Origin: Terriglobia bacterium
GTDB lineage: Bacteria > Acidobacteriota > Terriglobia > Terriglobales > Acidobacteriaceae
Assembly (NCBI GenBank): GCA_020072645.1
Contig: JAIQGK010000022.1
Span: 1 to 64,000, forward strand
Direction of reading: 5' to 3'
DNA length: 64,000 nt
How positions within the stretch are numbered: the first letter of the stretch is position 1; each line of letters opens with the position of its first letter. This document shows, piece after piece, positions 1,428 through 57,819 of the stretch. The notes below the pieces were generated by a model. The model was not told the DNA's origin and searched no databases. It was given only the letters and a program-made list of their open reading frames with translations. The translations under genes and the position numbers were made by a program.

Positions 1428-1553
1428 TTAGAACCCAAACTGCACCACTACCGACATTTTTAGACCGGGTCCAATCCGCTCGCCCCTGATCTGCACCCCT
1501 TTAGGTGAGTTCCCATCTACAATCTGCCACGTACCTCCGTCGTGAAAATTCGC
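1428..1553 (-). pseudogene. Possible C-terminal coding remnant
   Basis: Directly after the stop codon of the upstream lactonase-like gene, the same frame stays open for 41 codons. It reads protein-like (FHDGGTWQIVDGNSPKG, then GPGLKMSVVVQFGF) and ends in TAA at 1430-1428. It has no start codon of its own. It could be the tail of a lost gene or chance. The rest of 1324-1553 is non-coding as far as I can see. Confidence 0.25.
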
Positions 1554-2558
1554 TTACTCAATCCGCACAACCCTCTCACTAACCTTGGGGAATTTTTCAA
1601 ACACGGCGGGGTCATGGCCGGGTACGATTAGCCGGGGCGAAGCGGCGAGTTGTTTCATGCGGTCCTGGGCGCGGAGATTGGACGCCGCATCAAGCGTCTG
1701 GGCGATAGGCACGTGCTTTTCCAGGTTTTCATAAAGATACATGTTGTCGCTGGCCAGGATCACCGTGCCGCTTTTGGTGTTCACGCCCAGGTATTGCGAC
1801 TGGAACGTATGCTTGCCGCCGGTATAGCAGGTAATGCCGGGAAGAATCTGCTGGGCGTCGCCATTAATCAGCGTAACGCGGCCCGCCAGGTTGAGCTTGA
1901 CTGCGGCCAGCACGTCGTCTGGCTCAATGCCGCCATGAGTGCGCGGGCTCTGCCATGCTTCTCCTGTGTAATAGGTGTATTCATCTTTTTGCAGCCAGAT
2001 GCGCGCCTTGGGAAAAAGGTCCATGCCGTCCGCGTGGTCCCAGTGCATGTGCGTGATCACCACGTCAGTAATGTCTTCTGGCGTGAGCGCGGGCTGGCCT
2101 GTGGGCATGATGCCGGGCTCGCCAATAGCTTCAGAAGCTTTGATGAAACTCTCCACCTTGAATTGCTTGAAGAATTGCGGACGATAGAAACCGGAATCGA
2201 CCAGGATGTTATGGCCGTTGCCGCGGATGAGCCAGACCGTCATGGCGATGGAGAATTTTCGCTGCGGATCGGCGTCGGCAATGAGCGCGTTGACGGGAAA
2301 GTCTGGAATGGAAGCGTAGCGGATGGCAAAAACTTCATACACCGGCGCTGCGGAGGTCGCGGAAGAAGATGTTGGCGCGGATTTAGTCTGTGCTGCCTTC
2401 CCGGAGTTATCGGCACCGCGCGTGGACGAGGCCGGTGACTCCCAAAAGGCTGTGGCATAATCTACGGAACGATTTGCGAGGTTTCCTGGAGAAGTCTGTG
2501 CAATAGTGAAGAGACTTGAGACAAGAAACAGCGCTGCGGCAATCGATTTTGCTATCAT
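1554..2558 (-). CDS. Secreted metallo-beta-lactamase-fold hydrolase (lactonase-like)
   Basis: An N-terminal hydrophobic segment (residues ~4-20, ending AQTS) is a likely signal peptide, followed by a Ser/Thr/Ala-rich linker of about 50 residues. The zinc motif THMHWDHADG lies near residue 170, with further metal ligands likely at GKHTF and at the C-terminal PGHDP. This matches the N-acyl-homoserine-lactonase-like (AiiA/AttM) branch of the MBL superfamily. The substrate cannot be told from sequence; quorum quenching is only one possibility. At 334 aa it is longer than AiiA because of the signal and linker. It diverges from the membrane protein that begins at 2613. Confidence 0.75.
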   Translation of the reverse strand: MIAKSIAAALFLVSSLFTIAQTSPGNLANRSVDYATAFWESPASSTRGADNSGKAAQTKSAPTSSSATSAAPVYEVFAIRYASIPDFPVNALIADADPQRKFSIAMTVWLIRGNGHNILVDSGFYRPQFFKQFKVESFIKASEAIGEPGIMPTGQPALTPEDITDVVITHMHWDHADGMDLFPKARIWLQKDEYTYYTGEAWQSPRTHGGIEPDDVLAAVKLNLAGRVTLINGDAQQILPGITCYTGGKHTFQSQYLGVNTKSGTVILASDNMYLYENLEKHVPIAQTLDAASNLRAQDRMKQLAASPRLIVPGHDPAVFEKFPKVSERVVRIE

Positions 2559-22431: not shown

Positions 22432-22504
22432 AGGTGTTTCTGTCCTCAATTAGGGCCAAAACAATTAAGGTGCACGCACTCCGCTTCCTCTCTATAATAA
22501 ATAG

Positions 22505-22622
22505 ATAGGTTCCGACCACATCCGGCCTAAGGAATACCCGGCGGGACGTGGCGGCTCCTTGCTGAGAATGCAAGGACGAGGGTCTGTCGTGGAAACGCAC
22601 GGGCCTCCCGTTTGGAAAGGAA
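22505..22622 (+). ncRNA. Structured moaA leader, candidate Moco riboswitch
   Basis: Upstream of moaA the leader can fold as CCG-A-CCAC / GTGG-CGG with an inner CCGG/CCGG helix (22513-22555), then CCTTGC/GCAAGG (22557-22575), then ACGGG-CCT-CCCGT (22599-22611) followed by GGAAAGG. The GGCCTCCCG and GGAAAGG combination recalls the Moco RNA motif known upstream of molybdopterin genes. I cannot score it against the Rfam model, so the assignment is tentative, but the folding potential is directly visible. Confidence 0.45.
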
Positions 22623-22706
22623 CCGAAACACGCTTCGGCGTATTTCCCTCCTTTTTCATTTCCCGCAATCAGCGCTGCTCCTGCAATCGACTGGCGACAA
22701 ACGTAT

Positions 22707-35893: not shown

Positions 35894-37254
35894 TACACGT
35901 GTTCTTCGGATGAAGAAATCATCGGCAGCAGGAGCACCGGCGCTCGCATGAATTCAAATCGATCAATCGCCTCCACGGCGCGTTGAACGGTTGTTTCCAG
36001 CGTCGGCTCCAGCGTAATTACAAATGAGAGGCGGTCTTTGGCCATGTTGGGTTCCTGGATTACGGAGTCAATATTGATTCCTTCGCGAGCAATCGCTTCT
36101 GCCGTGCGCGCAAGGATTCCCGGCTGATCGTTCACAGTAAGGCGCAGGAACCAGCTCACCGGATTGGGGCGGGGCAGTGGATGCAATGGCTCAGCGCGAT
36201 GAAAGCCTTTCAGCAGACTGCTCTCTGTCTGCCCCCGCGCAATCTGGCGAGCAATCTGTAAGACATCTGAAAGCACAGCGGTGCCGGTGGCGCTGCCTCC
36301 CGCGCCGCGTCCGTAAAGCATCTGCGTGCCAACGCTTTCACCGGCAATAAAAATTGCATTGTTTGCGCCTGCGGCCTTGGCCAGCATTGAGTCGCGTGGC
36401 TCCAGCCAAGGTTGTACCGCAATGTGTACGCCCCCTGCCGCCCGCTCTGCCGATGCGACCAAGCGGATGGTCGAATTCAGCCGATGCGCATAATGGAAAT
36501 CAGTGGACGTGATGTTGCGGATGCCGGTAACGGGAATCTCCGAGGTCACCACGGAGTGGCCGAAAGCAATGCGCGCCAGGATAGCAATCTTGTCGCGAGC
36601 GTCCAGCCCGTCGATGTCCAGGCTGGAGTCAGCTTCAGCGTAGCCGGCGGCCTGTGCCTGCTCCAGGGCGTGCGCGAACTCAATGCCGTGTTCTTCCATC
36701 TGCGTAAGAATGTAGTTGCACGTCCCATTCACAATTCCGTAAACGGCCTGGATCCGGTCCGCAGCCAGCGCTTCAGAAATTGCGCGGATCACGGGCACGC
36801 CCCCGGCGACTGTGGCTTCAATTCCTATAGGAAGATTTTTCTCCTGCGCCAGAGCAAACAGTTCATCGCCATGCAACGCAATGAGAGCCTTGTTCGCGGT
36901 CACTACAGCCTTACCGTTTTCCAGGCTTGTGCGAACGACGTCACGGGCGACGGTAGTTCCGCCGATTGCTTCCACCACGATATCCACGTCATTAGCGGTG
37001 GCCACCTGCCGCCAGTCAGAAACTACAGTGATTCCATTAACACCCAGTTCAGTGGCGCGCGGCTTCTTACGGCAGATTCGGGTAACGACGATACAAATGC
37101 CCCCCGTTTTCTGACTGATCTCTTCAGCGTGGCTGGAGAGAATCTCAGCCGTGGCGCGACCCACGGTGCCGTAGCCAATGATGCCGACCCGCACCTGCTC
37201 TGGGTTGTGTCTGGACGGTTTCCGCTTTTCTATGGCGTCTTCAATGCCGTGCAT
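35893..37254 (-). CDS. hom: Homoserine dehydrogenase
   Basis: NAD(P)-binding VGIIGYGTVGRATAEIL near residue 22; substrate part VVTANKALIALHGDELFALA; YGIVNGTCNYILTQM and GYAEADSSLDIDGLDARDKIAILA are highly conserved; a C-terminal ACT domain (VNDQPGILARTAEAIAREGINID) gives threonine feedback control. 453 aa. Last gene of thrB-lysC-thrC-hom; its start overlaps thrC by 14 nt. It reduces aspartate semialdehyde to homoserine. Confidence 0.96.
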   Translation of the reverse strand: MHGIEDAIEKRKPSRHNPEQVRVGIIGYGTVGRATAEILSSHAEEISQKTGGICIVVTRICRKKPRATELGVNGITVVSDWRQVATANDVDIVVEAIGGTTVARDVVRTSLENGKAVVTANKALIALHGDELFALAQEKNLPIGIEATVAGGVPVIRAISEALAADRIQAVYGIVNGTCNYILTQMEEHGIEFAHALEQAQAAGYAEADSSLDIDGLDARDKIAILARIAFGHSVVTSEIPVTGIRNITSTDFHYAHRLNSTIRLVASAERAAGGVHIAVQPWLEPRDSMLAKAAGANNAIFIAGESVGTQMLYGRGAGGSATGTAVLSDVLQIARQIARGQTESSLLKGFHRAEPLHPLPRPNPVSWFLRLTVNDQPGILARTAEAIAREGINIDSVIQEPNMAKDRLSFVITLEPTLETTVQRAVEAIDRFEFMRAPVLLLPMISSSEEHV

Positions 37255-38548
37255 AGATTTGCTCCAGGGTCCGGATTACCGCATCACCGTCTGCGTCCAT
37301 GGGACCAAGCAGGTTTTGTCCCGGTAACTGCTTCATGTAGTCGATGTCCTTCAACATGTGCCCGGTAAGCACCAGGACGACCCTATCCGCGGACTTCACA
37401 AATCCTGCGGCTACCAGTTTTTTTAGCCCAGCCAGAGTTGCTGCCGATGCCGGTTCGCAGCCGATGCCTTCCGCGCCAAGCTCTGCCTTGGCCAAGGCAA
37501 TCTCTTTTTCGGTGACTTCTTCGCATGCGCCGCCTGTATTTTTCAGAACGCTTACTGCCTTTCGCCAGGAAGCGGGATTGCCGATCCTAATGGCCGTTGC
37601 CCTGGTCTCGGGAGTCACGCGAATTAATTCTGTACCCCCGTTTTCTCGCATGGTGCGGACGAGCGGATTGGCTCCGGCGGCCTGAATGATGGAAATCTTG
37701 GGCAGCGACTGGATCAGGCCAAGCTCGCGCAGTTCCATAAATCCCTTACCCAACGCCGAACTATTGCCCAGGTTTCCGCCGGGCACAATTACATGTTGAG
37801 GGACTTGCCAGTCCAACTGCTCCATTAATTCAAACGCCACCGTTTTCTGCCCTTCCAGCCGGTAAGGGTTGAGCGAATTCAAAAGATACGCAGAGAATTT
37901 GCGGACGACTTCATGCAAAACTCTCAGGCAGCCATCAAAGTCTGTGCGCAGTTGCAAGACATTTGCGCCGTATTCCAGGGCCTGCGCCAGTTTTCCGGCG
38001 GCAACCTGCCCGGCAGGCAAAAGGACGATGCTCTTCATTTCCGCCCGCGCCGCGTAAGCAGCGACCGAAGCTGACGTATTTCCTGTGGAAGCACAGCATA
38101 CCCAGGAAAATCCTTCAGCCTTTGCCATGGTGATTGCGGCGGAGATCCCAGTATCTTTAAATGATCCTGTGGGGTTCATGCCTTGATGTTTCACCAGGAG
38201 GTTTGGCAGATGTAGTTCGCGTGCAACTTTTCTGAGTGGGACTAGAGGCGTGTTGCCTTCGCACATAGTGACCATGTTTTGGCGATCGACCTGCGGCAAC
38301 AACTCGCGGAAGCGCCAAACGCCGCTCGAATTTTCCGGCAGTGAGGATCCTCGCCGTTCGCGCCAGATTTCTTTCAAGCGCAGCGCGAACTCCGGCGGCG
38401 CCGATGCCCATTCCGGATAAACGACCTCCAGCAGCTCCGAGCATTGCGTACAGCGGAACATTCGATCGGCAGTCTCCTGTACTTTGGCACAGTGGACACA
38501 GCGCAAAAAGTGCGCCGCGACCGGCGGCTTCATCGGTACTGTACTCAT
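37241..38548 (-). CDS. thrC: Threonine synthase
   Basis: An N-terminal zinc-ribbon-like part (FLRCVHCAKVQ, MFRCTQCSELLEV) precedes the PLP fold-type II domain with the Lys motif NPTGSFKDTG, the STGNTSAS phosphate loop and VPGGNLGN. This is the canonical threonine synthase motif set. The start at 38548 is chosen because it overlaps the lysC stop as ATGA and has a GGGGGC site; the open frame runs to 38614. It turns O-phosphohomoserine into threonine. A paralogue lies at 45242. Confidence 0.93.
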   Translation of the reverse strand: MSTVPMKPPVAAHFLRCVHCAKVQETADRMFRCTQCSELLEVVYPEWASAPPEFALRLKEIWRERRGSSLPENSSGVWRFRELLPQVDRQNMVTMCEGNTPLVPLRKVARELHLPNLLVKHQGMNPTGSFKDTGISAAITMAKAEGFSWVCCASTGNTSASVAAYAARAEMKSIVLLPAGQVAAGKLAQALEYGANVLQLRTDFDGCLRVLHEVVRKFSAYLLNSLNPYRLEGQKTVAFELMEQLDWQVPQHVIVPGGNLGNSSALGKGFMELRELGLIQSLPKISIIQAAGANPLVRTMRENGGTELIRVTPETRATAIRIGNPASWRKAVSVLKNTGGACEEVTEKEIALAKAELGAEGIGCEPASAATLAGLKKLVAAGFVKSADRVVLVLTGHMLKDIDYMKQLPGQNLLGPMDADGDAVIRTLEQIYARH

Positions 38549-41077: not shown

Positions 41078-41173
41078 TTACGCTGACGGCTCGCCGGATT
41101 TTCGCATAGGTGTGCGTGTGCTTGTTGTTGTCAAGCACATGCTTACGGCGAAGATGCTCTGGCGATCCCGCAT
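41078..41173 (-). CDS. thrL: Threonine-rich leader peptide of thr operon
   Basis: ATG 41173 to TAA 41078 encodes 31 aa containing MCLTTTSTRTP: five Thr codons, all ACA, within seven codons (residues 15-21). The antiterminator arm CGGCGAG lies at codons 26-29, just downstream of the Thr cluster, so a ribosome stalled on Thr codons would leave it free and one at the stop would cover it. The -10 box ends 8 nt before the ATG, so the message is leaderless or nearly so. This is analogous to E. coli thrL but unrelated in sequence. Confidence 0.85.
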   Translation of the reverse strand: MRDRQSIFAVSMCLTTTSTRTPMRKSGEPSA

Positions 41174-41400: not shown

Positions 41401-41481
41401 ATGACAGTCATTCGCCAGGACATGTGTACTTGTTGTTGCAAGGTGACCACCGTGTCTCTGGCTGGAGAAACTGCTACCTAA
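41401..41481 (+). CDS. Cysteine-rich leader peptide of sulfite reductase operon
   Basis: A 26-aa ORF with RQDMCTCCCKVTT: four Cys codons in five positions (residues 9, 11-13). The ATG is 8 nt past the -10 box, so it is translated from a leaderless or near-leaderless RNA. TCTGGC at 41457-41462 can pair with GCCAGA at 41514-41519 in the downstream terminator, giving an antiterminator. Cys-rich leaderless peptides control sulfur genes by attenuation in mycobacteria; this looks like an independent example. Confidence 0.83.
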   Translation: MTVIRQDMCTCCCKVTTVSLAGETAT

Positions 41482-41506: not shown

Positions 41507-41541
41507 GCCCATCGCCAGACGCGATGGGCTTTTTACTTTTT
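41507..41541 (+). terminator. Attenuator terminator before sulfite reductase
   Basis: GCCCATCGC (41507-41515) and GCGATGGGC (41521-41529) form a perfect 9-bp stem, loop CAGAC, followed by TTTTTACTTTTT. It lies between the Cys leader and the reductase start. Confidence 0.9.
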
Positions 41542-41583
41542 GGGACATTCTTAAACTCTTTGCTAGGAAAGACTGCGGAAACT

Positions 41584-43299
41584 ATGAGCACTGGAACCAG
41601 CATGGCCGCCAAAGAAACCAAGGCCCAGCGGGCAGAACGCCTGAAAGCGGAGAAGAATCCCTGGGAGTGCTTTGAAGAAATACGGCAGTTTGCCAGCCAG
41701 GGCTTGTCGGCTGTGCCGGACTCCTGGATAAAAACCTATTTCCGCTGGTGGGGTATTTACACGCAGGGAGATGGCGCGGGCGCAGTCGGTGGAGTTGGCG
41801 GCGAAGGCCGCACTATGCCGTATTTCATGCTGCGAATTCGTTTGTCCAATGGTTTTGTGAATGCAAAGCAGTTACGTGCTATCGCCGGTCTCACGGAAAA
41901 GTATGCGGGCGGCATTGCAGATATTACGGTGCGGCAGAACATACAACTTCACTGGATCACGATCAAAGATCTTCCAGATGTATTGCAGACGCTTTTTGAT
42001 TGCGGCCTGACTTCAATGGCGACGTGCGGTGACGTGACGCGCAACGTCACGGGCTGCCCACTCGCCGGTTTGGACGCGCATGAGTTTTGCGACGCTTCAC
42101 CGCTGGTCGATGAAGTAACGCAGTTGCTTGTCGACAATCCCGATTTTTATAACCTGCCGCGCAAGTTCAAGATCAGCATCAGTGGCTGCCAGGATTGGTG
42201 CTCTTATCCTGAGATCAATGATCTGGCTTTCACGCCCGCAGTCCGCGAGGTGGCAGGCAATACAGAAGCCGGATTTTCCATTCGCGTGGGTGGAGGACTT
42301 TCCACCGAGCCTCACTTGGCCGTGCGACTCAATGCTTTTGTGCGCTGGGAGCAGGTCATCCCGGTAAGCAAGGCTGTGGCCGAAATCTTCCGAGATGCCG
42401 ACGAACTGCGGGAAAATCGCGAGCGCGCCCGGTTGAAATATCTCTTCCTGCAGCACGGCTGGACCGCCGAATCATTTTTGCATGAACTGGAGCGCAAACT
42501 AGGGTACAAGTTGGAGCCAGGAGTTCTGGAGCAGCAGCCTGACGATGTGTTTCGCGACCATGTTGGCGTGCATCGGCAAAAACAGCCGGGACTTTTCTAC
42601 GTGGGCGCGGCCGTGCTGCGCGGACGCATCAATCCACACCAGCTACGGGCGGCGGCTGATCTGGCGGAGCGCTATGGCAATGGCGAGCTTCGCACCACGA
42701 ACACTCAGAACCTGGTGATTGTGAACGTGCCGCGCGAAAACACCGCGGCTGTAACTCTTGGACTGGAAACAGCGGGGCTTCATGTTGCGGCTTCCCCTTT
42801 CTGGCGCGGCGCGGTGGCTTGCACCGGCAGCGAGTTCTGCAAGCTGGCGATCACGGAAACCAAAGCCTTCACCCGCTGGCTGGTGGAAGAGTTGGAAGAC
42901 CGTATCCCTGAGTTTGATCAGCAATTGAAACTCAACGTAACAGGCTGCCCAAACAGCTGTGGCCAGCATCGCATTGCGGATATCGGCCTGGAAGGCAAGA
43001 AGCTCAAGATTGCGGGCCGCATTCAAGATGCTTACTACTTCTGTCTTGGCGGCGCTGTCGGCGAGCACGCAGGGTTTGGCCGTCCGGTGGGTTACCGGTG
43101 CCCGGCCAGTGAAGTGCCGGATGCCATTGAGCGTCTGCTGCGCAGCTATCTCGATGAGCGCCATGGCAGGGAAAATTTACGGCAGTTTTTCGCGCGCCAT
43201 TCAGAATCGGCCCTGCGGACTTTTCTTGCGGGGCAAGACCTGCCGCCCGTATTGCGTGATCCCTCACCCGGCAGAGTGCCGCACGGAGTGGAAGGATAG
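41584..43299 (+). CDS. sir: Assimilatory sulfite (nitrite/sulfite) reductase, ferredoxin type
   Basis: Two tandem half-repeats, each with a ferrodoxin-like and a siroheme-binding part. The C-terminal half holds the coupled cluster ligands ACTGSEFC (C-x5-C) and TGCPNSC (C-x3-C), near residues 417 and 459; the N-terminal half has NVTGCPLAGLD and the degenerate SGCQDWC. 571 aa from ATG 41584; ATG 41524 lies inside the terminator and is unlikely. The NirA-like family reduces sulfite or nitrite by six electrons; the Cys leader and the siroheme genes behind it favour sulfite. Confidence 0.9.
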   Translation: MSTGTSMAAKETKAQRAERLKAEKNPWECFEEIRQFASQGLSAVPDSWIKTYFRWWGIYTQGDGAGAVGGVGGEGRTMPYFMLRIRLSNGFVNAKQLRAIAGLTEKYAGGIADITVRQNIQLHWITIKDLPDVLQTLFDCGLTSMATCGDVTRNVTGCPLAGLDAHEFCDASPLVDEVTQLLVDNPDFYNLPRKFKISISGCQDWCSYPEINDLAFTPAVREVAGNTEAGFSIRVGGGLSTEPHLAVRLNAFVRWEQVIPVSKAVAEIFRDADELRENRERARLKYLFLQHGWTAESFLHELERKLGYKLEPGVLEQQPDDVFRDHVGVHRQKQPGLFYVGAAVLRGRINPHQLRAAADLAERYGNGELRTTNTQNLVIVNVPRENTAAVTLGLETAGLHVAASPFWRGAVACTGSEFCKLAITETKAFTRWLVEELEDRIPEFDQQLKLNVTGCPNSCGQHRIADIGLEGKKLKIAGRIQDAYYFCLGGAVGEHAGFGRPVGYRCPASEVPDAIERLLRSYLDERHGRENLRQFFARHSESALRTFLAGQDLPPVLRDPSPGRVPHGVEG

Positions 43300-44930: not shown

Positions 44931-44972
44931 CTATAGGGCCCTCTCGCTTCGCTCGGGGTTACAGAAAAACTA
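44931..44972. repeat. Dispersed CCCTCGCTTCGCTCGGGG element
   Basis: TATAGGGCCCTCTCGCTTCGCTCGGGGTTACAG ends at the stop of the cysO-like gene. A near copy, AAGGGGCCCCTCGCTGCGCTCGGGAT, lies at 59471-59496 just past the M28 peptidase. Both hairpins sit 3' of a minus-strand gene, each after an oligo-T stretch. A third partial match is at 13664-13682. Confidence 0.65.
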
Positions 44973-45242
44973 GCCGCCCGCAATCGACGGCACCAGCGTC
45001 ACCTCATCTCCTTCTTTGAACTTGTAGTCTTTGCCGAGGAAGCGAATGTCTTCATCGTTGACGTAAATATTCAGGAAGCGGCGAACGTTGCCCTGTTCAT
45101 CGCGCAAGTGCGGCTTGAGGTCAGGGAAGCGACCGCCGAGGGAATCCAGCAATCCAGCCAGATCAGAGCCGTCACACTCGCAATGTTCGGCGCCTTCAGT
45201 GTGCCTCCGAAATGCACTTGGAATGGAAACTTTAACGCCCAT
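44970..45242 (-). CDS. cysO: CysO/MoaD-like sulfur carrier protein
   Basis: 90-aa beta-grasp protein: FLNIYVNDEDIRFLGKDYKFKEGDEVTLVPSIAGG ends in the diglycine that is adenylated and thiocarboxylated in sulfur carriers. Its start overlaps the upstream threonine-synthase-like gene (TAATG). The pairing with a PLP enzyme and not with moaE, plus the Cys-rich leader upstream, favours a CysO-like role in amino-acid sulfur transfer over molybdopterin synthesis. Matching JAMM protease and MoeZ-type activator genes are at 51487 and 52100. Confidence 0.85.
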   Translation of the reverse strand: MGVKVSIPSAFRRHTEGAEHCECDGSDLAGLLDSLGGRFPDLKPHLRDEQGNVRRFLNIYVNDEDIRFLGKDYKFKEGDEVTLVPSIAGG

Positions 45243-46513
45243 TAGGCAGCTCCTTTGCTCGCCGCACGCGCGCCGGCGAACTGGGTCTCAAGAAATTGTT
45301 CGAATGCAGCCAGCTTCGGTGGAATCGGCTCAACGGTATCGAATTTGCCCGCAAGAGCGTCCGTGGTCTTAAGGCCGTTGCCGGTGATGCAGAGGACGGT
45401 CGTCTCATCCGGACGGATGCGCCCTTGCGCGTAAAGTTTGCGTGCCGCAGCAACGGTGACGCCGCCCGCCGTTTCAGTGAAGACGCCTTCGGATTCGGCC
45501 AGCAAGGCCATGGCTTCAACGATCTCTGGATCGCTGGAATCTTCCGCCCATCCGCCACTGCCAAGGATTGTCTTGGCGGCGTAAAAACCATCCGCCGGGT
45601 TGCCGATGGCAAGCGACCGTGCGATTGTTTTTGGCTTCTGCGGCTCAATCTCATTGCGTCCAGCTTTTACGGCCACGCTGATAGGACTGCAACCGGTGGC
45701 CTGCGCGCCAAAGAACTTGACCTGTTTCTCTTCGACAAATCCAAGGTTGATCAGCTCTTTGAAGGCTTTGTAGATCTTAGTAATCAGCGATCCACCCGCC
45801 ATCGGTACAACGATATTGTCAGGCAGGCGCCAGCCAAGCTGCTCGGCGATTTCATAGCCCACAGTCTTCGAGCCTTCGGCGTAGTAAGGCCGCAGATTCA
45901 CGTTGACGAAACCCCAGCGGTGCTTGTCCGCGATCTGCGAGCACAGGCGATTCACGTGATCGTAATTGCCGTCAATGCGAACGATCTGCGCACCATAAAC
46001 CTGCGTGCCTAAAACCTTCGCGGGCTCAAGATCGGAAGGGATAAAGATGCAAGCTTTGAATCCTGCGCGCGCGGCCTGTGCTGCAACGGCATTGGCTAGG
46101 TTGCCGGTGGAAGAGCAACTGACGACATCGAAGCCGAAGTTGCGTGCTTGGGTGAGCGCAACAGCAACCACGCGATCTTTGAAGCTGAGCGTAGGGAAGC
46201 AGACGGCATCATTCTTCAGGTATAGCGACCTGCTGCGGACAGTCTCACCCAGCTTGGCTGCTTTGAGCAGAGGTGTGAAGCCGGCGGGGGTAGAGCCGTC
46301 ATAGTTGTCAGGCAGAGGCAGCAGCTCTTTGTAACGCCACAGGTTGGTGGCGCGGCCTGCGATTTTGTCTTTGCTGATCTCTTTGCCGATGCGGTCCCAG
46401 TCATAGGCCACTTCCAGCGGGGCGAAGCAGTTCTGGCAGAAAGAAATCGGCTGGTTGCCCCAGAGGGTCTGGCATTCGCGACATCGCAATTCGTAGCGCA
46501 GGTTCGTGCTCAT
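45242..46513 (-). CDS. Threonine-synthase-like PLP enzyme, probable sulfur-amino-acid synthase
   Basis: N-terminal zinc ribbon (YELRCRECQTLW, ISFCQNCFAPLEV) and a fold-type II PLP domain with the Lys motif FPTLSFKDR, the SSTGNLANAVAA loop and VPMAGGSLITKI. It differs from the thrC in this window at the substrate-side motif (FPTLSFKD against NPTGSFKD) and at GGSL against GGNL. The start at 46513 has GAGGAG. 423 aa. By homology it would be called threonine synthase, but a true thrC lies in the thr operon. Co-expression with cysO and the Cys-rich leader suggest that it uses protein thiocarboxylate sulfur and a phospho-amino acid to make Cys or homocysteine. That role is inference. Confidence 0.8.
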   Translation of the reverse strand: MSTNLRYELRCRECQTLWGNQPISFCQNCFAPLEVAYDWDRIGKEISKDKIAGRATNLWRYKELLPLPDNYDGSTPAGFTPLLKAAKLGETVRSRSLYLKNDAVCFPTLSFKDRVVAVALTQARNFGFDVVSCSSTGNLANAVAAQAARAGFKACIFIPSDLEPAKVLGTQVYGAQIVRIDGNYDHVNRLCSQIADKHRWGFVNVNLRPYYAEGSKTVGYEIAEQLGWRLPDNIVVPMAGGSLITKIYKAFKELINLGFVEEKQVKFFGAQATGCSPISVAVKAGRNEIEPQKPKTIARSLAIGNPADGFYAAKTILGSGGWAEDSSDPEIVEAMALLAESEGVFTETAGGVTVAAARKLYAQGRIRPDETTVLCITGNGLKTTDALAGKFDTVEPIPPKLAAFEQFLETQFAGARAASKGAA

Positions 46514-46570: not shown

Positions 46571-46601
46571 CTAAAAAACCCGCTGCCTGAGGCAGCGGGT
46601 T
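46571..46601 (-). terminator. Attenuator terminator before thrC-like/cysO
   Basis: AACCCGCTGCC and GGCAGCGGGTT form a perfect 11-bp stem with loop TCA on the minus strand, followed by TTTTAG. The loop-side CTGCCTC can instead pair with GAGGCAG in the leader (plus 46637-46643), a 7-bp antiterminator. Confidence 0.9.
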
Positions 46602-46624
46602 CATGATTGCTGAATAAAAACTTG

Positions 46625-46708
46625 CTATGAACCTTTCTGCCTCGGCGTGAACACACGCATAGCCATCGCGCAACAGCACATGGCCATGTTGGAGACAGAA
46701 AGTGACAT
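46625..46708 (-). CDS. Cys/Met-rich leader peptide of thrC-like/cysO operon
   Basis: ATG 46708 to TAG 46625 encodes 27 aa with NMAMCCCAMAMRV: three consecutive Cys codons framed by Met codons. The ATG is exactly 8 nt past the -10 box. The antiterminator arm GAGGCAG covers codons 22-24, downstream of the Cys run, as expected if ribosome stalling on Cys codons permits read-through. A longer frame to 46837 extends upstream of the promoter and is not used. Confidence 0.82.
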   Translation of the reverse strand: MSLSVSNMAMCCCAMAMRVFTPRQKGS

Positions 46709-46716
46709 CAGCAAAA

Positions 46717-46745
46717 AGTGTACATTATCGGCCTGAACGAAGCAA
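46717..46745 (-). promoter_or_regulatory. Promoter of thrC-like/cysO operon
   Basis: TTGCTT (46745-46740) and TACACT (46722-46717) with a 17-nt spacer on the minus strand. Confidence 0.7.
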
Positions 46746-47766: not shown

Positions 47767-47803
47767 TAAAAATAAAACCCGCTGCCTTTGTGTGGGCAAC
47801 GGG
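47767..47803 (-). terminator. Attenuator terminator before proC
   Basis: CCCGTTGCC and GGCAGCGGG form a 9-bp stem (one GT pair) on the minus strand, loop of 8, followed by TTTTATTTTTA. GGGGCAGAGGGG at the end of the leader ORF can pair with CCCGTTGCC over seven of nine positions as a competing structure. Confidence 0.85.
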
Positions 47804-47842
47804 ACTGAATATGAGTGCCAGTTTAATCTTTAAGCAATCATA

Positions 47843-47914
47843 TTACCCCTCTGCCCCAGGGACACACGGGAGCGGGTATGCAGCCTGCGCCGGGTTGGGT
47901 CGAGAGGTGAACAT
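47843..47914 (-). CDS. Proline-rich leader peptide of proC
   Basis: ATG 47914 to TAA 47843 encodes 23 aa: SRPNPAQAAYPLPCVPGAEG holds five Pro codons. The ATG is 10 nt past the -10 box. Pro richness directly before a proline-synthesis gene with an intrinsic terminator between is the pattern of amino-acid attenuation. The Pro codons are dispersed, so stalling is less focused than in the Thr and Cys leaders. Confidence 0.72.
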   Translation of the reverse strand: MFTSRPNPAQAAYPLPCVPGAEG

Positions 47915-47924
47915 GAATAAGCGC

Positions 47925-47953
47925 ACTATAGCCCATGTTGGCGGGGCATACAA
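47925..47953 (-). promoter_or_regulatory. Promoter of proC
   Basis: TTGTAT (47953-47948) and TATAGT (47930-47925) with a 17-nt spacer on the minus strand. Confidence 0.7.
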
Positions 47954-47989
47954 GCGCAGAATCGCGGCTGACATGCGATTCCAAAAACC

Positions 47990-51196: not shown

Positions 51197-51486
51197 ATGT
51201 CAACAAGAGAAGACAGTACCGTCGGGAAAAAATCGGCAGGAACTTCAGGCGAGGGCGGAAATGTTTAGAAAATTCTAAGAGATTATCTGGACTTGCACAC
51301 GGTACAGTGCAAAATTAGGCGATTCCGGCCAGAAAAATGACAAAAAATGGTGCAAAGGGGCTGCAATTCCATTCTGGATCATCTAACATAGTGCCCCTTC
51401 GTCTTGCTTTTTGATCGGAAAGCTTTCGTAAGACCGTCCCTGGCCGGATGACTGGAGAAGCCGCCACTTCCCAGGAGAAGTCCGAC

Positions 51487-51945
51487 ATGTTAAAGATCAG
51501 CAAGGCTGACTACGATCTGATCCGCTGGGAAGCCAAGCGCAGCTATCCCCATGAATGCTGTGGCATTCTGCTGGGCAATGTGGTGGAAGGGCACCGGCAG
51601 GTCACTTTGACCCTTACCTGTGAAAACATGCGGGTGGATTCACCCGCAGACCGCTACAGCATCAATCCGGAGCAGGTGATTGCCGCCCTGAAGCTGGCGC
51701 GCAGCCGCGGGGAAAGCATTATCGGGTTCTATCACTCACACCCGGACCATTCACCCAATTATTCGTCTACTGACCTTGCGGAAGCCCACTGGTTTGATTG
51801 TTCTTACGTGATAACCAGCGTCGAGAAGGGAACGCCTACCTCCACGGCCTCATTTGTCCTTGTGGGGTCGGAGGACAAGAAGACGTTCCAAGGGGAGAGC
51901 ATTGAGATTGTGGCCAACCAGCGCTCGCCGGTCTATGCCACATGA
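51487..51945 (+). CDS. JAMM/M67 metalloprotease (Mec-like)
   Basis: 152 aa with the JAMM zinc motif: Glu in HECCGILLG, then IIGFYHSHPDHSPNYSSTDLAEA (H-x-H-x7-S-x2-D). ATG 51487 has GGAGAAG. In actinobacteria Mec cleaves cysteine from the CysO-Cys adduct; this gene is followed by a MoeZ-type activator, and a CysO-like protein is encoded 6 kb away, so the same role is likely here. Confidence 0.9.
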   Translation: MLKISKADYDLIRWEAKRSYPHECCGILLGNVVEGHRQVTLTLTCENMRVDSPADRYSINPEQVIAALKLARSRGESIIGFYHSHPDHSPNYSSTDLAEAHWFDCSYVITSVEKGTPTSTASFVLVGSEDKKTFQGESIEIVANQRSPVYAT

Positions 51946-52099: not shown

Positions 52100-53266
52100 A
52101 TGGCCATAACAATTGCCCCGCATGAGCCACCCGTATTGAGCAACGAGGAAGTTCTCCGCTATTCACGGCACCTGATCATGCCGGAAGTGGGTATGGAAGG
52201 CCAGCAGAAGCTCAAGGCCGCGCGCGTGCTTTGTATCGGGACAGGCGGCCTGGGATCGCCGCTGGCGCTGTACCTTTCCGCCGCCGGCGTGGGCACGCTG
52301 GGGCTGGTGGACTTTGACGTTGTCGATTTCACTAACCTGCAACGCCAGGTGATCCATTTCACCAGTGATGTTGGGCGACCCAAGTTGGAGTCGGCCAAGG
52401 AAAAGATCGCGTCCATCAATCCTTACGTCGATGTGAAGACCTTTGAAACGCGCCTCACCAGCCAGAACGCGCTGGAGATCTTTTCCGATTTTGACATCAT
52501 CGTGGACGGAACGGACAATTTTCCGACGCGCTTTCTGGTGAATGATGCCTGCGTGTTTACCGGCAAGCCGAATGTGTATGGATCGATTTTCCGCTTTGAA
52601 GGCCAAGCCAGCGTTTTTGCCACCAAAGACGGGCCGTGCTATCGCTGCTTATATCCTGAGCCGCCGCCGCCGGGGCTGGTTCCTTCCTGCGCGGAAGGCG
52701 GAGTGTTGGGCATTCTTCCCGGATTAGTTGGCCTGATTCAGGCGACGGAAGCCATCAAGCTGATCCTGGGCGCGGGCCAGCCGCTGATCGGGCGTCTGCT
52801 GCTGGTAGACGCCATGGGCATGAAGTTTCGCGAGCTCAAGCTGCGCAAGAATCCTGACTGCGTGGTTTGCGGAACTAATCCCACTGTGACTAAACTCATT
52901 GATTACGAAGAGTTCTGCGGACTGCGAGGTCAAGAGAAACCAGTGAGCAACGGCGTACCTGAAATCAGCGTGGAAGAATTAAAACAGCGTCTTGACGCGA
53001 AGGAAGACTTTGTCCTGCTGGACGTGCGCGAACCGCACGAATACCAGATCTGCAACCTGAACGGTGTGCTGATTCCTCTGAACGACCTTCCGCGGCGCGT
53101 GCATGAATTGGATCCCAGCAAGGAGATGGTAGTGCATTGCCGGTCCGGAGCGCGCAGCGCTCGGGCCGTTGGCTTTCTGCAACATGCGGGATTCAAAGCA
53201 AAGAACTTGGCCGGCGGCATTCTTGCGTGGTCAGACCGCATTGATCCGAAGATGCCGAAATACTAG
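52100..53266 (+). CDS. moeZ: MoeZ-like adenylyltransferase with rhodanese domain
   Basis: 388 aa: an E1-like domain with CIGTGGLGSPLALYLSAAGVG, DFDVVDFTNLQRQ and DGTDNFPTRF, Cys pairs for zinc (CYRCLYPEPP and DCVVCGTN), then a rhodanese domain with active loop VVHCRSGARSARA. MoeZ adenylates the C-terminal Gly-Gly of CysO/MoaD and then forms the thiocarboxylate using rhodanese persulfide. Directly behind the JAMM gene. AAAGGAAG precedes the start. Confidence 0.95.
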   Translation: MAITIAPHEPPVLSNEEVLRYSRHLIMPEVGMEGQQKLKAARVLCIGTGGLGSPLALYLSAAGVGTLGLVDFDVVDFTNLQRQVIHFTSDVGRPKLESAKEKIASINPYVDVKTFETRLTSQNALEIFSDFDIIVDGTDNFPTRFLVNDACVFTGKPNVYGSIFRFEGQASVFATKDGPCYRCLYPEPPPPGLVPSCAEGGVLGILPGLVGLIQATEAIKLILGAGQPLIGRLLLVDAMGMKFRELKLRKNPDCVVCGTNPTVTKLIDYEEFCGLRGQEKPVSNGVPEISVEELKQRLDAKEDFVLLDVREPHEYQICNLNGVLIPLNDLPRRVHELDPSKEMVVHCRSGARSARAVGFLQHAGFKAKNLAGGILAWSDRIDPKMPKY

Positions 53267-57504: not shown

Positions 57505-57819
57505 AGGCGCATTCAGGGTAACAGAGCGAAAGGGTTTTATGGAGACTGGATGGCGATTCGCGCGTTGAACGTCCGGAGCCGCGTATTTGCGTGGTATCGG
57601 CTTCAATGGCACAATTAAGTAGTGGCTTTTCAGCCGGTTGGCCCAAGCAAGATTCCGAGTCGAAGCGGGTCTGAAGGTCATCAAAAGAAGTAGTAAGACT
57701 GCGGGCTTCAACAACCCCGCGGATCGGGCGTGGAACTGCGCAGTGGATCCGCTGGAGCCTGTGGATGCTTTCAACATCTCCGTTCCGTTGCACTAAGCCG
57801 CGGGACTGAAGGCGGATAA

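Follow-up and report, generated by a model that had tools for sequence, protein, structure and literature searches.

A candidate Met/Cys attenuator upstream of a threonine-synthase-like gene in Acidobacteriota

Architecture of the leader upstream of TSp

The window analysed here, a 64-kb stretch of DNA from a Terriglobia bacterium (host genome G000), carries a threonine-synthase-like gene, here called TSp, on the minus strand (46513..45242), which matches an NCBIfam threonine synthase model and is changed at its phosphate-site residues. Downstream of TSp, on the same strand, is a CysO/MoaD-like sulfur-carrier gene with a Gly-Gly end (44970..45242). Upstream lies a predicted leader ORF of 27 codons, MSLSVSNMAMCCCAMAMRVFTPRQKGS (46708..46625, minus strand), with orthologous leaders in the genus. 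Its most distinctive part is a Met/Cys stretch (46658..46687, minus strand), where Met codons 8, 10, 15, and 17 are placed around Cys codons 11-13 (46678..46670, minus strand); codons 7-18 correspond to NMAMCCCAMAMR. The leader is followed by an intrinsic terminator with a T-rich tail (46602..46576, minus strand; −21.8 kcal/mol). The initial annotation had described a 27-aa leader and an 11-bp terminator, and both elements are found on the minus strand, with 12 pairs in the terminator rather than 11.

The end of the leader ORF supplies the 5′ arm of a predicted antiterminator, GAGGCAG-AAA-GGTTCAT (46643..46627, minus strand), while ATGAACC-CG-CTGCCTC (46604..46589, minus strand), the 3′ arm, shares sequence with the 5′ side of the terminator. 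The antiterminator had been noted as a 7-bp GAGGCAG/CTGCCTC helix, which captures its presence but not its extent, as a second 7-bp helix brings the duplex to 14 pairs and −21.3 kcal/mol. When the leader end is shuffled at constant composition, 27 of 300 shuffles reach this energy. Close to the start of the ORF, CTTTCTGTCTC (46702..46692, minus strand) is able to pair with GAGGCAGAAAG (46643..46633) and would act as a protector arm; the resulting 11-bp helix competes with the antiterminator and is present in the minimum-energy fold. The 186-nt leader strand as a whole folds with a z-score of −5.2, and none of 200 shuffles folds as well. Protector, antiterminator, and terminator are mutually exclusive in these sequence and energy predictions, and are ordered as in classical attenuators.

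Two possible −10 hexamers, TACACT (46722..46717) and GATAAT (46729..46724), lie 8 and 15 nt upstream of the leader ATG (46717..46729, minus strand). Among the two best matches for each of the seven TSp leaders of the genus, six leaders have a −10 box 7-9 nt upstream of the ATG; the exception is G000, whose best matches place the box at 15 nt, with TACACT at 8 nt found by eye. A second leader family, upstream of an ATP-grasp gene and discussed below, has a −10 box 11-14 nt before the ATG in four of six leaders, those with a match of at least 9/12. Because such promoter-like hexamers are so close to the ATG, translation of the TSp leader may start on a transcript with almost no 5′ UTR, although a stricter consensus scan upstream of the leader found no promoter.

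Conservation of the leader and the four leader groups of the genus

TSp is present in all nine genomes of the genus, and an orthologous leader lies upstream of it in seven. Of the other two, G446 is without a leader before TSp, and G445 has its contig cut within the gene. The seven leaders all hold four internal Met and between two and four Cys. In each, NMAMCC is followed by CA (three leaders), RA (one), HT (two), or A (one), and then by MAM, or by MHM after the single A. Thus CC occurs in all seven and the CCC run in three, the third Cys varying between C, R, H, and absence. The MHM form, in G449, results from a change in the middle codon that kept both Met.

Pattern searches place these leaders in context. 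A search for MAMCC across the nine genomes returned 16 sites, of which seven are the TSp leaders, five belong to the second family, and four (L064, L070, L074, and L077) were taken as chance. MCCC has 20 sites in the host genome, two of them in leaders, namely the TSp leader and the ATP-grasp leader L020. The exact NMAMCCC matched only G000 among 396 genomes of the phylum, a pattern that is too strict because orthologues carry CCR, CCH, or CCA. When AACATGGCCATGTGYTGY was searched over named genome contigs, 29 loci were found, eight from Acidobacteriota with leaders identical to those of the genus; five represent the TSp type, with L092 stopping short of the gene, and three the ATP-grasp type. 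The named contigs bearing these leaders come from metagenome assemblies, for example “Terriglobia bacterium isolate S3” and “Acidobacteriaceae bacterium isolate clean1655”. The other 21 loci were judged incidental from their reading frames alone. Four mycobacterial matches to the NMAMCC pattern (L081, L091, L098, and L107) share a similar reading, ..ENMAMCC.., and were taken as another frame of a conserved gene.

The second leader family carries MAMCCC or MAMAMC, also has a terminator and an antiterminator, and occurs in G000, G447, G450, G451, G448, and G257 (L020, at 1456..1560 on the plus strand, L072, L076, L078, L079, and L110). In G000 the ATP-grasp gene is followed by a partial monooxygenase-like gene (SfnG model, 83.7 bits, below the cut-off). 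MAMC is common to all 13 TSp and ATP-grasp leaders, the ORF is open in all 13, and changes in length keep the Met/Cys run in frame. By reading, an indel in the G257 leader shifts the frame against the antiterminator and retains the Met/Cys run. At the six ATP-grasp loci of other genera, no such leader was found in the five with upstream sequence.

Two further groups are represented in the window by leaders with terminators: a Cys-rich leader, MTVIRQDMCTCCCKVTTVSLAGETAT (41401..41481, plus strand), before a sulfite/nitrite reductase gene (41524..43299), and a Thr-rich leader, MRDRQSIFAVSMCLTTTSTRTPMRKSGEPSA (41078..41173, minus strand), before a thr operon of homoserine kinase, aspartokinase, ThrC, and homoserine dehydrogenase that includes the true thrC (37241..38530, minus strand). 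Across the genus, the sulfite reductase gene has a Cys-rich leader at all seven loci read, and the thr operon has a Thr-rich leader at all six. Mean internal codon counts are Met 4.00, Cys 2.71, and Thr 1.71 in the TSp leaders (n = 7); Met 4.00, Cys 5.00, and Thr 2.33 in the ATP-grasp leaders (n = 6); Met 1.43, Cys 4.71, and Thr 3.43 in the sulfite reductase leaders (n = 7); and Met 2.00, Cys 1.50, and Thr 6.50 in the thr leaders (n = 6), where the sequences inside each group are related and the counts are not independent. By sequence, then, the leader codons track the operon in the four groups (Met/Cys, Cys, Thr, and ATP-grasp).

Other short ORFs were also seen. G446, the genome without a TSp leader, has a Met-containing, Cys-free leader, MSYFPQTTRMFMSMRTPGGVLLVTGV, upstream of a PF01053 (transsulfuration-type) gene (L126; 2652..1450, minus strand), with a terminator and a strong antiterminator that 2 of 300 shuffles equal. 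Before the three strong PF01053 genes of G000 no convincing leader was found, L131 giving one weak frame. Within the window, a Pro-containing short ORF, ..MFTSRPNPAQAAYPLPCVPGAEG (47843..47974, minus strand), with a terminator at 47803..47778, precedes a proC-like gene (span 47778..47974) and is possibly a proline attenuator, judging from its sequence; neither of the two usable loci compared (L149 and L151) has a similar leader before proC.

Chance is a poor explanation for the TSp leader. Only one ORF of 10-50 codons in the window has at least six Cys plus Met in ten codons, and it is the TSp leader, with a terminator behind it, while 100 first-order Markov windows, which do not imitate coding DNA, averaged 0.04 ORFs of this kind, or 0.00 when a terminator was required; on this comparison a chance origin was rejected. 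If the criterion is instead four codons for a single amino acid (C, T, H, W, F, or M) within nine, the window has 16 such ORFs against a simulated mean of 6.28. With a terminator there are two, against 0.00, and these are the sulfite reductase and thr operon leaders.

The pairing energies give a more mixed picture. The four groups together comprise 26 leaders, each followed by a terminator hairpin. Out of 300 shuffles, those equalling the antiterminator energy number 14-147 in the TSp group, 1-88 in the ATP-grasp group, 34-232 in the sulfite reductase group, and 3-52 in the thr group. Pairing of leader ends with terminator arms favors the own group in each case, with mean energies of −19.4 against −10.6 to −14.7 across groups for TSp, −23.0 against −14.2 to −17.0 for ATP-grasp, −16.2 against −8.9 to −14.5 for sulfite reductase, and −17.0 against −11.8 to −15.3 for thr. 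The native arm is better than every arm of another group in six of seven TSp leaders, two of six ATP-grasp leaders, three of seven sulfite reductase leaders, and two of six thr leaders. Because the energies are weak against shuffles in most of the TSp group, the case for an attenuator leans on position, conservation, and this cross-group preference. Position and conservation weigh more than pairing energy, and conservation is stronger than the chance test.

The same conservation bears on whether the leader is translated at all. An RNA- or DNA-level element acting without translation, either a riboswitch or a protein-binding site at the palindrome ACATGGCCATGT, would account for the fact that this palindrome is perfect and is kept in the seven TSp leaders. 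We regard such an element as extremely unlikely, given that the ORF stays open with its Met/Cys run in frame across the 13 leaders, and that an added codon pair splits the palindrome in two leaders of the ATP-grasp group. A riboswitch at the TSp locus of the window was likewise rejected: an Rfam scan of the leader region gave no family at its gathering score and only sub-threshold matches at E up to 5, including Leu_leader (22.7 bits against 50), and a match to the SAM-I family RF00162 is absent. Elsewhere in the window, tandem nadA riboswitch matches (57704..57759 and 57767..57813, plus strand) lie just upstream of a quinolinate-synthase-like gene, and a molybdenum/tungsten cofactor riboswitch match (22498..22638, plus strand) lies upstream of a MoaA-like gene.

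The TSp enzyme and its SAM-I riboswitch in relatives

TSp scores 272.6 bits with the threonine synthase model TIGR00260, compared to 285.8 bits for the ThrC of the window and a cut-off of 167.1. The closest solved structures to TSp are threonine synthases, and the window ThrC is 32-35% identical to the TSp of other genomes. In the threonine synthase of T. thermophilus, we take Lys61 to bind PLP, and Asn154, Ser155, Arg160, and Asn188 to bind the substrate phosphate; these residues were confirmed at those numbers, and a literature search for a paper on the roles of threonine-synthase phosphate-site residues found none. All 37 TSp sequences keep Lys61 and Asn154. Three of the phosphate-site residues are changed, Ser155 to Asn in 37 of 37, Arg160 to Tyr in 37 of 37, and Asn188 to Gly in 36 of 37 (one gap), and the ThrC of the genus keeps all five residues in four of four sequences. 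Because key threonine-synthase residues are missing, the threonine synthase label of TSp is probably wrong. The proposal that TSp makes homocysteine from O-phosphohomoserine lost support with these same changes. The initial annotation had also read the leader as a functional label for its operon, and this idea is supported by the Thr-rich leader of the thr operon, the Cys-rich leader of the sulfite reductase gene, and the loss of phosphate-site residues in TSp, with which a sulfur role for TSp is consistent.

The neighbors of TSp point in a similar direction. The CysO-like gene adjoins TSp in 34 of 37 loci, was not found in L038 and L046, and is cut in L063. Outside the genus, homoserine dehydrogenase adjoins TSp in five of 28 loci, downstream in L028, L032, and L036 and upstream in L041 and L046; the identity of the G444 homoserine dehydrogenase was confirmed by NCBIfam. 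The Mycobacterium CysM-CysO-Mec system is a protein-thiocarboxylate system, in which a PLP fold-type II enzyme works with a MoaD-like carrier. TSp resembles it as a PLP fold-type II protein beside a MoaD-like carrier, although TSp is threonine-synthase-like, not CysM-like. A few kilobases away, the window also encodes possible partners of the CysO-like protein, namely a JAMM peptidase-like gene (51448..51945, plus strand; desampylase model below the cut-off) and a MoeB/MoeZ-like activating enzyme with a rhodanese domain (52100..53266, plus strand). Taken together, the phosphate-site changes, the CysO-like neighbor, the homoserine dehydrogenase, and the JAMM- and MoeZ-like genes argue that TSp depends on a sulfur carrier and has its place close to the methionine branch. 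TSp would not have to be the sole route to homocysteine or cysteine, as PF01053 (transsulfuration-type) enzymes occur in the genus as well. A MetX profile gave no match over its cut-off in the nine genomes of the genus, and no control genome passed either; the best MetX match in G000 gets a higher score from a family of unknown function, and it has, by eye, a secretion-like N-terminus.

Relatives outside the genus would mostly control TSp in another way. We sampled 60 genomes of the family; at E up to 1e-100, TSp is present in 30, including two from the genus. Among the 28 loci outside the genus, 23 have an RF00162 match over its gathering threshold upstream of TSp (15 of 18 and 8 of 10), in the same place where the window has a peptide ORF instead. 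Of the remaining five, L039 shows a piece of a SAM-I riboswitch by eye at a contig end, L052 is cut, and in L041 and L046 the gene immediately upstream of TSp is that for homoserine dehydrogenase, with no SAM-I riboswitch detected; the fifth, L042, is described below. Within the genus, RF00162 was found in none of nine genomes, with about 150 of 251-569 candidates scored per genome. The same search, run as a control on 12 relatives that bear TSp (11 of them known riboswitch carriers), detected the riboswitch in 11 of 12. The SAM riboswitch before TSp is often the only one detected in these relatives: it was the single copy in ten of 11, with G441 having a second. SAM riboswitches before homoserine dehydrogenase have been described in Bacillota, in the part of that source available (PMC12452182). 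The riboswitch in relatives and the adjoining homoserine dehydrogenase suggest, at the sequence level, that methionine could be the product of the operon.

L042 (G408) stands apart. Its TSp leader, MISTSQNSFISTIAISTMAMSMRLTTAAMQSSGEVKS, is rich in Thr, Ile, Ser, and Met and without Cys, and its terminator resembles those of thr leaders. The best antiterminator duplex found by the program is equalled by 242 of 300 shuffles, and TGGCGAG/CTCGCCA can be read by eye. The initial annotation had suggested a survey of orthologous leaders, in which Thr richness would count against its interpretation; a Thr-rich leader was seen in none of the seven of the genus, and once outside it, in L042. Regulation of TSp by Thr in the genus was rejected, as none of the seven leaders is Thr-rich (mean 1.71 Thr), a rejection that covers the genus and not L042.

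L042 also bears on the view that TSp does make threonine, as a second threonine synthase or as the sole one in relatives, with a leader that senses general aspartate-family or starvation signals. The Thr/Ile/Met leader of L042 and the five adjoining homoserine dehydrogenases speak for it, as do the TIGR00260 score and the closest structures. The three altered phosphate-site residues weigh on the other side, along with the sulfur-carrier gene at 34 of 37 loci and the separate ThrC of the genus in a thr operon with its own Thr leader. On balance we find a genuine threonine synthase improbable.

A relationship between the leader and the riboswitch can be proposed. A dual Met-plus-Cys attenuator may stand where relatives have the SAM riboswitch, with control of the operon passing, in either direction, between sensing of SAM and sensing of charged tRNA, and with the product of the operon being a homocysteine- or cysteine-forming enzyme that depends on a sulfur carrier, is of an undescribed kind, and is filed as a threonine synthase. 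We put this forward tentatively, as a possibility rather than as the expected outcome. In the TSp protein tree, the genus and the riboswitch-bearing group lie on opposite sides of a branch (100/100) with a root that is not usable, in an alignment of 36 rows from which L036 and L037 were left out and in which L039 was counted as a riboswitch locus by eye.

Proposed sensing of Met and Cys

Our favored reading, which we consider likely, is that the leader works as a ribosome-mediated attenuator of transcription, responding to the sulfur amino acids (Met as much as Cys), and that TSp is a sulfur-carrier-dependent enzyme near the homoserine/methionine branch and not a threonine synthase. A shortage of Met or Cys would stall the ribosome in the MAM-CC-xx-MAM stretch of the leader. 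The 5′ part of the leader, the putative protector, could then not hold the GAGGCAGAAAG arm, which would be free to pair with the 5′ side of the terminator and allow transcription to continue into TSp and the CysO-like gene. When Met and Cys are plentiful, the ribosome would reach the stop codon and cover the GAGGCAGAAAG arm, and the terminator would form. The elements are in place, exclude one another on paper, and are conserved in the genus; from them we infer translation of the leader, stalling as the trigger, and a role for Met alongside Cys. Against this reading stand the Cys-free Thr/Ile/Met leader of L042, the missing TSp leader of G446, the pairing energies that shuffles often reach, and the consensus scan that gave no promoter.

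The role of Met is the part of this proposal that differs most from the earlier account, in which the leader was a Cys-sensing switch with Met sensing as a possible addition. Sulfur sensing agrees with the present results, but the emphasis on Cys is too narrow, the Met/SAM branch being indicated no less than Cys, because the four Met are kept in seven of seven leaders while the third Cys varies, and because a SAM riboswitch precedes TSp in 23 of 28 relatives. The Met-containing, Cys-free leader of G446 also speaks for Met.

It could instead be that only the Cys run senses, as in mycobacterial polycysteine leaders, with the Met codons serving an RNA hairpin. The MAM repeats can form such a hairpin, CAUGGCCAU with AUGGCUAUG, which is in the minimum-energy fold, and AMAM is also present in two thr leaders (T_G447 and T_G257); because of both, the Met codons may be structural rather than sensory. 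The Cys codons found in every TSp leader (CC in seven, CCC in three) and the clearly Cys-rich sulfite reductase leaders of the genus fit a Cys-only attenuator as well. Set against this are the four internal Met of the TSp leaders, compared to a mean of 1.43 in the Cys-rich sulfite reductase leaders, the change to MHM in G449 that kept both Met, and the SAM riboswitches of relatives. We judge sensing by Cys alone rather unlikely.

The nascent peptide could also act as an arrest peptide, in which case the NMAMCC segment, while in the ribosome tunnel, would sense a small molecule such as SAM or Cys, and tRNA charging would not be the signal. The MAMC shared by all 13 TSp and ATP-grasp leaders would suit such a peptide, and relatives sense SAM at the same place. 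Charging alone explains a stretch that lies close to the N-terminus and amid Met and Cys codons, and outside this stretch residues are conserved only as the antiterminator requires, which makes an arrest peptide very unlikely.

The proposed Met/Cys attenuator shares with the classical trp, his, thr, and leu attenuators a short ORF, a run of regulatory codons, and the order of protector, antiterminator, and terminator, and differs from them in mixing Met and Cys codons and in a transcript that may be nearly leaderless. Closer parallels come from Cys leaders. Leaderless polycysteine short ORFs of mycobacteria have been reported to be cysteine-responsive, according to the title of the study (Canestrari 2020, cited in PMC13236596), and predicted Cys leaders in Actinobacteria are described, in the portion of the source consulted, as having no conserved terminator hairpins (PMC1262725). 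These mycobacterial and actinobacterial leaders have in common with the TSp leader a run of Cys codons in a short ORF that precedes sulfur genes and may lie on a leaderless transcript. Relative to the actinobacterial leaders as that portion describes them (PMC1262725), the TSp leader has a terminator and an antiterminator, Met flanks, and a threonine-synthase-like target. In Rhodobacterales, the uORFC-8-2 motif before cysS has two tandem conserved Cys codons and a terminator stem, as far as the accessible text goes (PMC8632094). Judged from that text, it is like the TSp leader in combining tandem Cys codons with a terminator stem, and differs in having two Cys, a cysS target, and an alphaproteobacterial host. 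An excerpt of a further paper (PMC7311316) has no bearing on TSp. Searches of an openly licensed literature collection, which takes in few subscription papers, brought up no paper recognised as dealing with a leader of this Met/Cys kind in Acidobacteriota, with control of TSp by SAM, or with attenuation by Met codons.

The Met/Cys leader and the SAM riboswitch of relatives are two independent regulatory clues, and they agree with the change in the active site that a protein named “threonine synthase” by NCBIfam would act otherwise, with sulfur. The same operon would be under riboswitch control in some species and under a leader peptide in others, within a genus that has four groups of such leaders.
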